Shown here: positions 664 to 40,730 of the stretch, one piece after another
Position numbering within the stretch: position 1 is the stretch's first letter
Layout: every line of letters begins with the position of its first letter
Origin: Candidatus Acidiferrales bacterium
GTDB taxonomy: Bacteria > Acidobacteriota > Terriglobia > Acidiferrales > UBA7541
NCBI GenBank assembly: GCA_030037335.1
Contig: JASHRN010000237.1
Location: forward strand, 1 to 57,415
DNA: 57,415 nucleotides
Direction of reading: 5' to 3'
Notes under the pieces: model-generated
Databases searched by the model: none
Seen by the model: only the letters and a program-made list of their open reading frames with translations
Told to the model about the DNA's origin: nothing
Made by a program: the position numbers and the translations under genes

Positions 664-739
664 ATTTCTAACGCAACACGTCAATTATTAGAAACCGACG
701 TAAGTTACACAAAACAAAGGCTCGCCAAATTTCTAATCG
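664..739 (+). repeat. TTCTAATCG/CACAAAACAAAGG intergenic element, copy A
   Basis: TTTCTAACG..ATTAGAA(687-693)-N14-CACAAAACAAAGG(708-720)-N9-TTTCTAATCG(730-739); matches copies B and C. Confidence 0.85.
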
Positions 740-32280: not shown

Positions 32281-33934
32281 ATGAACCAACTTTATTACGG
32301 CGACAATCTCGACGTTCTCCGCCGCTACATCAAGGACGAATCCGTCGACCTCGTCTATCTCGACCCTCCTTTCAAAAGCAATCAGGACTACAACGTCCTC
32401 TTCGCCGAAAAAGACGGCACCGGAGCCGCCGCACAATTCAAAGCCTTCGAAGACACCTGGGAATGGAACCAGCTTTCCGCCGCCATGTACGAGGAAATCG
32501 TCGAGCGCGGCGGCCGCGTCTCCGACGTAATGCAAGCCTTCCGCCGCTTCCTCGGCACCAACGACATGCTCGCCTACCTCACAATGATGGCTCCCCGCCT
32601 CGTCGAACTTCATCGCGCCCTCAAATCCACCGGCAGCATTTATCTCCATTGCGATCCCACCGCCAGCCATTACTTGAAGCTCCTTATGGACGCGGTGTTC
32701 GGTCCCGTAAATTATCGAAACGAGATATCGTGGCTGCGCTCGCAACCAAAGAGCCATACCACCGTTAATTTTCCCAACTGCCGCGACATTCTGCTTCGAT
32801 ACTCGAAGGGTGACAGACCCAAATTCTTCAAGGTCTACAGCGAGTACGACGAAGCATATTTGAAGAAATTCTATAGATTCGTCGACGAAAAAGGTCGCCG
32901 CTACAGGCTCGGAGACTTGACGAACCCTAATAAAAACAGGCCGAACCTCACATATGAGTTCCTGGGCGTTCTCCGAGTGTGGCGTTGGACGAGGGACAGG
33001 GATGGAGAAAGCTTGGCGCGACGGACTAGTCTATCAGTCGAAAATGGGGGCTGTTCCCCAACTGAAGCGGTATCTTGACAAGATGAAGGGTCAGCCACTG
33101 AGCGACAATTGGGACGACATAGAGCATTTACATGGGTCCAACTTGGAAGGCCTCGGCTATCCGACACAAAAGCCGGAAGCATTGCTGGAGCGAATTCTCA
33201 AGTCGAGCAGCGAGGAAGGAGAGACGGTCCTCGACCCGTTCTGCGGCTGTGGCACATCCATCGCTGTCGCTCAGCGCCTAAATCGCAAATGGATTGGCAT
33301 CGACATAACCCATCTTGCCATCGGCCTCATCAAGAGCCGCCTTCGCGACGCATTCGGCGAAGCCGTCAAGGAAACCTACAAAGTCATCGGCGAGCCGACC
33401 GCGCTTCCCGACGCCGAAGAACTCGCCAAAGAGGACCCCTATCAATTTCAGTGGTGGGCGCTCGGCCTTGTCGGCGCGCGCCGTGCCGAGCAGCGCAAGG
33501 GCAGCGACCAGGGGATCGACGGGCGCCTCTATTTCCACGACGAAGGCGAAGGCGGCTCAACCAAGCAAATCATCTTGTCCGTGAAATCTGGACACGTTAA
33601 CGTGGCGCAAGTCCGCGACCTGCGCGGCTTCATCGAACGCGAAAAGGCCGAAATCGGCGTCCTCATTACTCTCGAAGACGCAACGAAACCTATGCGCACC
33701 GAAGCTGCCGCCGCGGGATTCTACAAGTCCCTTTATGGGCAGGATAAATATCCAAAGCTGCAAATCCTCACCGTCGCCGAACTCCTCGGCGGCAAGAGCA
33801 TCGCCTATCCTCAGCACAGCCATAACGTCACCTTCAAACGCGCCCCTCGCGCCGAAACTCCTCAAGCCGAACAACTCACCCTCGCCCCGAGTGACGAGAC
33901 CGCCAAGCCGCGAAAACCCCGCAAGCATTCGTAG
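32281..33934 (+). pseudogene. Beta-class DNA methyltransferase with probable Mrr-like nuclease C-terminus, interrupted by a 1-nt frameshift near 33001
   Basis: Frame of 32281: LVYLDPPFKSNQDYN...LTYEFLGVLRVWRWTRDR; continues in the 32954 frame as MEKAWRDGLVYQSKMGAVPQLKRYLDKMKG...LDPFCGCGTSIAVAQ...GIDGRLYFHDEGEGGSTKQIILSVKSGHV. One extra G resolves the two ORFs. Confidence 0.85.
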
Positions 33935-34034: not shown

Positions 34035-34128
34035 TTGACAATGTATTTATAAAATGGTACACATATCAGTGCGCGCCTGAAAACTTCAGGCTGCGACAAG
34101 CCGCCGCTTCGGCGGCTTTCGTATTTTA
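34035..34128 (+). ncRNA. Candidate small RNA with promoter-like box and intrinsic terminator
   Basis: TTGACA (34035-34040)-17 nt-TACACA; then hairpin CCTGAA-AAC-TTCAGG (34076-34090) and hairpin AAGCCGCC-GCTTC-GGCGGCTT (34098-34118) followed by T-rich TCGTATTTT; no ORF. Confidence 0.4.
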
Positions 34129-34143: not shown

Positions 34144-34220
34144 TCCTAATCGCGGAAATATGGAAAATTAGAAATCGATGCAACTTACACAAAACAAACA
34201 CTCGAACTCATTTCTGATCG
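34144..34220 (+). repeat. TTCTAATCG/CACAAAACAAA intergenic element, copy B1
   Basis: TCCTAATCG..ATTAGAA(34167-34173)-N14-CACAAAACAAACA-N10-TTTCTGATCG(34211-34220). Confidence 0.8.
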
Positions 34221-34331
34221 CGGAAATTTCCGCTTTTAGAAAAATTAGCCGCCCACTTTCGGACGCCGACCGCAGCCTCACCGCCGCGCGGGTCTTTGCT
34301 CCTCACTCCGCACTGGCCACTCGTCACCGCA

Positions 34332-34409
34332 TTTCTAATCGACAGAGCTATGAAAAATTAGAACCTTACATAAGCCTAATGAAATCAGTAAAGCTCACCC
34401 TTCTAATCG
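34332..34409 (+). repeat. TTCTAATCG element, copy B2 (degenerate centre)
   Basis: TTTCTAATCGACAGAGCTATGAAAAATTAGAA...TTCTAATCGAC; same outer motifs as copy C but the CACAAAACAAAGG core is degraded. Confidence 0.7.
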
Positions 34410-34560
34410 ACACGAAAATGCACTTCATCCAAGGTGTTCTGTCCTCTTTCGGCACCGTTGAGCGCGCACCTGCTCACAAATGCCTGTCGCCTGCGTCTGA
34501 ACAATACGAAACGCTTTTGCGTATCATCATCGGCCCACTTTTCGAGAGAGGTGACACCGC

Positions 34561-40483: not shown

Positions 40484-40652
40484 TCACCGGCCCCGCGAAC
40501 CCTACCATCCGTTCGCAAAATGTGCTAAGCTCGCACTGATCGGTATGTAACTCGTACGAGGACATTCGGGTGGCCAGCCCGGCAAACGAAAAGGCCAGTC
40601 GTAAGGGCCAAAATCAAGTCTCCCCACAAAAATCTAGCCTCCTCATTCAAAC

Positions 40653-40730
40653 TTCTAATCGCCAGACCCTACAAAAATTAGAAGTTGCGCTAAGTCGCAC
40701 AAAACAAAGGATCGGACGCATTTCTAATCG
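40653..40730 (+). repeat. TTCTAATCG/CACAAAACAAAGG intergenic element, copy C
   Basis: TTCTAATCGCCAGACCCTACAAAAATTAGAA(..40683)-N14-CACAAAACAAAGG(40698-40710)-N10-TTTCTAATCG(40721-40730). Confidence 0.85.

Follow-up and report, generated by a model that had tools for sequence, protein, structure and literature searches.

The window, by which we mean the whole stretch of 57,415 nt that was analysed, carries three clear copies and one decayed copy of a short element, and the neighbouring genes encode a class-III aminotransferase, a DUF4097 protein and a protein with a weak glycine-zipper match that does not reach the Pfam cut-off. The original prediction had placed one ordered motif set at 664-739, 34144-34220 and 40653-40730, and it was found there both by a motif search and by a family sequence model built from 80 copies, which matched the three clear copies on the + strand with E values from 9e-19 to 1e-23. 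A degenerate partner predicted near 34332-34409 was recovered as a model match at 34329-34431. The window copies all lie on the + strand, and start codons follow about 87, 152 and 73 nt downstream, about as claimed. The full unit consists, in order, of TTCTAATCG and a tag, 10–15 nt, ATTAGAA, exactly 14 nt, CACAAAACAAA, 11–12 nt, and TTTCTAATCG and a tag. We denote the first TTCTAATCG, in direct orientation, as S1, the inverted site ATTAGAA as S2 and the second direct site as S3, with the A-rich core CACAAAACAAA lying between S2 and S3. The features in the window are as follows.

662-761, + strand: copy 1, whole element (model match)
665-673, + strand: copy 1, S1 TTTCTAACG, the consensus minus one base (direct reading, model match)
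687-693, + strand: copy 1, inverted S2 ATTAGAA (direct reading, motif search)
708-718, + strand: copy 1, core CACAAAACAAA (motif search)
730-739, + strand: copy 1, S3 TTTCTAATCG
34035-34063, + strand: copy 2, promoter of the upstream RNA module, TTGAC...TGGTACACA (matrix scan, sequence)
34075-34091, + strand: copy 2, first hairpin of the short RNA, GCCTGAAAACTTCAGGC
34098-34119, + strand: copy 2, terminator-like hairpin and T-run ending the short RNA
34144-34152, + strand: copy 2, S1 TCCTAATCG, followed by the tag CGGAA
34167-34173, + strand: copy 2, inverted S2 ATTAGAA (direct reading, motif search)
34188-34198, + strand: copy 2, core CACAAAACAAA (motif search)
34211-34220, + strand: copy 2, S3 TTTCTGATCG, followed by the tag CGGAA
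34226-34241, + strand: copy 2, imperfect 3' terminal inverted repeat ATTTCCGCTTTTAGAA of the CGGAA subfamily (alignment of 14 subfamily copies)
34329-34431, + strand: copy 3, degenerate and in tandem with copy 2, core decayed (model match, E 2.5e-10)
34332-34341, 34357-34363 and 34400-34409, + strand: copy 3, S1, S2 and S3, respectively
40652-40661, + strand: copy 4, S1 CTTCTAATCG, followed by the tag CCAGA
40677-40683, + strand: copy 4, inverted S2 ATTAGAA (direct reading, motif search)
40698-40708, + strand: copy 4, core CACAAAACAAA (motif search)
40721-40730, + strand: copy 4, S3 TTTCTAATCG, followed by the tag CCAGA

Just 5' of copy 2, the gene at 33002-33934 encodes the C-terminal part of an N6/N4 DNA methylase together with restriction-endonuclease-like domains (PF22722, PF04471). 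Another dispersed GC-rich intergenic repeat, which resembles CTTCCAGCCTCTAGCTTCCAG, is present at about 400-430 of the window and in the flanks of many copies.

When the window was searched for TTAGAA-N(12-16)-CACAAAACAAA, exactly three hits were obtained (688-718, 34168-34198 and 40678-40708), each with N14, against an expected count of 0 from dinucleotide shuffles. The exact 14-nt gap claimed for the window copies holds for all three and, with 12-16 nt allowed, for 172 of 174 parsed copies, the gap sequence itself being variable. Among the same 174 copies, the core and the TTCTAATCG of S3 are 12 or 13 nt apart, and the spacing between S1 and S2 ranges from 10 to 24 nt. The predicted spacing profile was thus right in its N14 part, while the gap after the core, given there as 9-12 nt, is 11-12 nt. 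The predicted site list likewise held for ATTAGAA, the core and the right site and was incomplete, since the third conserved site, TTCTAATCG at 10-15 nt 5' of ATTAGAA, had been overlooked, as had the agreement of the tags, the RNA module that precedes many copies and the inverted repeats found in some subfamilies. The core lies ~21-23 bp, centre to centre, from both S2 and S3, spacings that would be close to two helical turns. A third inverted arm was seen in only 30/174 copies, and S3 mostly stands without one. We considered the 12-nt spacer as a guide sequence. It differs among near-identical copies, but it is unconserved between distant orthologs and was therefore rejected as a guide and treated as free spacer. 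At L192, L193, L082 and L045, a GGACA-tagged subtype carries CTCAGTGAG in place of S2 and the core GCAAAACCAA, and it stands in tandem with copies of the normal type. Many elements of different subfamilies are followed, 20-50 nt further 3', by the short conserved motif TTTCGGACACC (G000, G004).

In the genome to which the window belongs, there are 15 exact cores, 29 copies at up to 3 mismatches to a 53-bp motif (0 in the reversed control) and 53 model matches at E <= 0.01, the weakest of which are marginal. Genus mates hold 25-60 copies each, and family-wide, 28/89 genomes match at E <= 0.001, almost all of them in genera g1, g3 and g8. Two other genera of the family gave single weak matches only, and in most other genera the element was not detected by the model search of the 89 genomes. 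In a named genome collection, 44 stretches were found, every one from Acidobacteria or Ca. Acidiferrales MAGs. A literature search of open-licence papers found no description of the element family. We read this dispersed, non-coding intergenic repeat of ~100 bases in uncultured soil Acidobacteria of the Ca. Acidiferrales type as a new interspersed, MITE/BIME-like family.

The copies in the own genome and in the relative G004 are intergenic. Because genes were called with a purpose-written simple codon-usage caller, the placement counts are approximate: a same-strand gene lies downstream of 30/41 copies in the own genome and of 33/39 copies in the searched part of G004, where our comparisons cover ~58% of the genome. 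Same-strand facing therefore accounts for 73–85% of the copies with a clear neighbour, and 15-27% do not face a gene in this way. Within tandem gene pairs, the copies that run along the gene direction outnumber those against it by 21 vs 4 in the own genome and 17 vs 3 in G004, and the median distance from element to downstream gene is ~135 nt. Some copies lie between convergent genes. The downstream neighbours, identified by eye, include leuC, alaS, argS, ligA, ribBA and glyA. At argS and alaS, a promoter-like sequence that is conserved between species lies between element and gene, so that the element there is upstream of the promoter. At one leuC locus, S3 is only ~35 nt from the start codon, and the element may therefore be transcribed there.

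These data bear on the two functions originally proposed. A small regulon element is not supported, since the genes next to the copies are housekeeping genes unrelated to one another, no same-strand gene lies ahead of up to a quarter of the copies, and copies amplify and turn over. A classical operator serving the regulon of one pathway would account for the upstream position, the orientation and the conserved spacing, but given the unrelated neighbours and the turnover of copies we regard it as very improbable. In contrast, a repeat family under selection for its position ahead of genes is supported by the ~53 copies, the orientation bias in each genome tested, the fixed N14 and the site selection at orthologs. 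The results named in advance as contradicting the prediction, namely no orientation or upstream bias, copies in coding sequence at a like density, or loss of N14 in other copies, were none of them observed.

Orthologous loci share the element at leuC (in four species), alaS, argS, ligA, ribBA and others, as identified by eye. Between close orthologs, S1, S2 and S3 together are identical at 262/264 positions versus 1563/1837 for spacers and flanks (Fisher p 1e-14). Between more distant orthologs, the sites remain 95–98% identical and the core 88%, while the spacers are 36–51% identical. Considering this difference between sites and spacers at orthologous positions, the established copies are under selection. 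Gene conversion toward the consensus could add to the conservation of the sites; yet the intervening spacers diverge. Among own-genome copies whose downstream gene has an ortholog in the searched part of G004, 8 have the element there and most have none, which indicates both retention and turnover.

The family also amplifies, in some subfamilies recently, and turns over. The alignment of 14 copies of the CGGAA subfamily extends over ~103 bp, its edges are sharp, and the copies carry 16-bp imperfect terminal inverted repeats; such repeats occur in this and a few other subfamilies, and most copies are without them. At unrelated loci of G004, several copies are ~93% identical over a length of 170 bp. 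A larger composite of an upstream module and two elements recurs at several loci in two species. Orthologous positions without the element exist, with flanks too diverged for a clean join, and a clean empty site showing a target duplication was not obtained from the orthologous loci compared. In the loci examined, the element was not found on both sides of any transposase gene. Y1_Tnp had no match in the carriers G002 and G023, both of which are incomplete genomes, and many non-carriers have Y1_Tnp. A RAYT/REP partner was rejected, as the Y1 transposase and the element differ in their distribution and the transposase gene does not have the element on its two sides. Y1 tyrosine transposase genes do lie ~1 kb or less from some copies, on one side only (G000:C35 1915-2289, G000:C174 15069-15371 and G003:C157 1559-1930).

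The element could be a plain non-autonomous MITE, in which the conserved sites would be transposase sites and gene proximity would reflect tolerance rather than function. The terminal inverted repeats and sharp edges of the CGGAA subfamily, the ~93% identical copies at unrelated loci of one genome and the lack of a copy at the orthologous place in the relative for most own-genome positions tested are all in keeping with this. However, a dead insertion would not be expected to conserve its sites above its spacers at fixed orthologous copies, and the orientation bias is strong. Nor was an element-flanked transposase gene or a clean target duplication seen in the loci examined, and the Y1 family, which two carriers lack, is common among non-carriers. 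On balance, we consider the plain MITE rather unlikely.

Many copies are preceded by a second conserved segment. In 51-57/165 copies, the 350 nt upstream contain a promoter-like 29-mer (TTGAC...GTTAACT...TGGTAYACA) on the strand of the element, a count that includes tandem copies sharing one module. Around the same 165 copies, it was found 0 times upstream on the reverse strand, 0 times downstream on the same strand and once downstream on the reverse strand, and 9/9 close matches to the 29-mer in the genome are upstream of an element. In most cases, the ~60-100 nt 3' of it form a first hairpin, whose sequence varies, and then a terminator; GTTAAC lies in the promoter spacer, and the example in the window spans 34035-34119. 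That similar stems are formed from different sequences suggests a real RNA, and the module, which had no Rfam match, may be an undescribed RNA family. Upstream of CCAGA/CTTGT-class copies at L188, L189, L194 and L005, we observed a second promoter type (GTTAAC or GTCAAC) with a different hairpin (CGGTGGC...GCCGCC), which is probably a related RNA module.

The element may itself act as RNA, as a leader or attenuator read from the upstream module in which two TTCTAAT copies would compete for ATTAGAA. Such a role would suit the promoter and terminator module, which is on the same strand upstream of ~50/165 copies and essentially never on the other side, and alternative hairpins can be drawn because S1/S2 and S2/S3 are complementary. 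Against this, RNAalifold gave no consensus fold of the element, and single-copy folds were inconsistent between copies, with z from 0.7 to -3.6 versus shuffles, so that some fold better; we rejected the element as a folded RNA on these grounds. The complementary sites are moreover almost invariant and show no compensatory changes, the module terminator precedes the element, and at argS and alaS the promoter is downstream of it. An RNA role for the element therefore seems to us decidedly unlikely. A known structured RNA was also rejected, as no covariance model of Rfam 15 matched the element: only tRNA was matched in the window, and nothing relevant was found in nine loci at a lax threshold.

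The five bases that follow S1 and S3, the left and right tags, agree at 75% within copies, whereas shuffling them among copies gives ~36%. When each distinct left tag is represented by a single copy, the agreement is 64% versus 34%, and 0/5000 shuffles reached the observed value. Between species, the tags at orthologous loci are only 43-44% identical, while left and right tags within a copy are 87% identical. At leuC, the pairs in three species are GTACA/GTACA, CCAAT/CCAAT and CCACA/CCACA, and the own-genome copy has the unmatched pair ACACA/TAAAC. When the element was scanned for partners of the tag, the direct copy after S3 stood out (z 12.5), with a weaker direct signal in the S1-S2 loop; there was no other strong match, direct or inverted, and no base-pairing partner within the element. 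Binding of one protein does not explain the matched tags.

If the element were a site-specific recombination site, the 5-bp tag would be the crossover region and would have to match in S1 and S3. The agreement of tags within copies, which persists with one copy per tag class, their joint change at orthologous loci and the lack of another strong partner in the element are what such a site predicts. On the other hand, S1 and S2 are separated by anything between 10 and 24 nt, an inverted arm is usually lacking at S3 and we saw no recombinase gene that accompanies the element, which makes a recombination site very unlikely. Replacement of the whole element by another copy would also move both tags, and it leaves the origin of new matched pairs unexplained. 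More broadly, the element might work or persist only if its outer sites share an arbitrary 5-bp tag, that is, through a self-check of sequence identity. The tag could then be the crossover region of a site-specific recombination or a copying process by which one site is restored from the other, or it could be read by a diverging family of binding proteins; we regard the idea as doubtful.

Taken together, we favor, with a probability of roughly 50%, the reading that the element is a multi-site protein-binding array of double-stranded DNA upstream of genes, which has spread as a MITE/BIME-like repeat. A putative sequence-specific protein would bind TTCTAATCG at three sites, S1 direct, S2 inverted and S3 direct, with about two helical turns from S2 to the A-rich core and again from the core to S3. 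With such spacing, the bound proteins would share one face of the helix, and they could loop or bend the DNA immediately before the promoter of the gene. The family would amplify as a MITE/BIME-like repeat, often with the promoter-hairpin-terminator module upstream, and many copies would be retained by selection after insertion. The fixed spacing, the selection on the sites, the orientation bias, the amplification and the turnover were observed, whereas we infer the protein binding, an effect on the downstream gene, same-face geometry as the cause of the spacing, and a mobiliser.

Among known systems, MITEs such as Correia/NEMIS, ERIC and RUP (PMC2229807) are alike in being non-coding, <200 bp, dispersed, mostly intergenic, present in tens of copies and without their own transposase, and terminal inverted repeats occur in one subfamily of our element. 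With ~53 intergenic copies of ~100 bp, the element is short, dispersed and non-coding and has no transposase gene, as is expected of a MITE. Unlike the described MITEs (PMC2229807), most copies lack terminal inverted repeats, sites are selected at fixed loci and the orientation toward genes is strong, and no TA ends, clean target duplication or related insertion sequence were found.

REP elements are 20-40 bp palindromes tagged GTAG or CGTC, and TIR-associated tyrosine transposases (TIRYT) have been described in acidobacteria (PMC3733652). Our element resembles the REP/BIME systems with RAYT or TIRYT in being intergenic, clustered or paired and mosaic, with Y1 transposases near a few copies, whereas it has no such tag or palindrome, the transposase genes are unflanked, and there are carriers without a Y1 transposase match. 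Since the consensus contains no GTAG/CGTC-tagged palindrome of 20-40 bp, an identity as REP was rejected.

Interspersed bacterial repeats are usually regarded as mobile junk or hairpins. Here, binding-like sites are selected at orthologous loci in several species, and a private tag turns over in matched pairs, which raises testable questions: which protein is bound to the array in a poorly studied soil phylum, and which force keeps direct repeats 60 bp apart identical? Multi-site operators with DNA looping are a known class. The element differs from them in its tens of copies before unrelated genes, its amplification and its copy-specific matched tags, but it shares with them the direct and inverted sites, the fixed and helically compatible spacing, the A-rich centre and the position upstream of promoters, and, as in an operator, its conserved sites at fixed spacing are under purifying selection upstream of genes.
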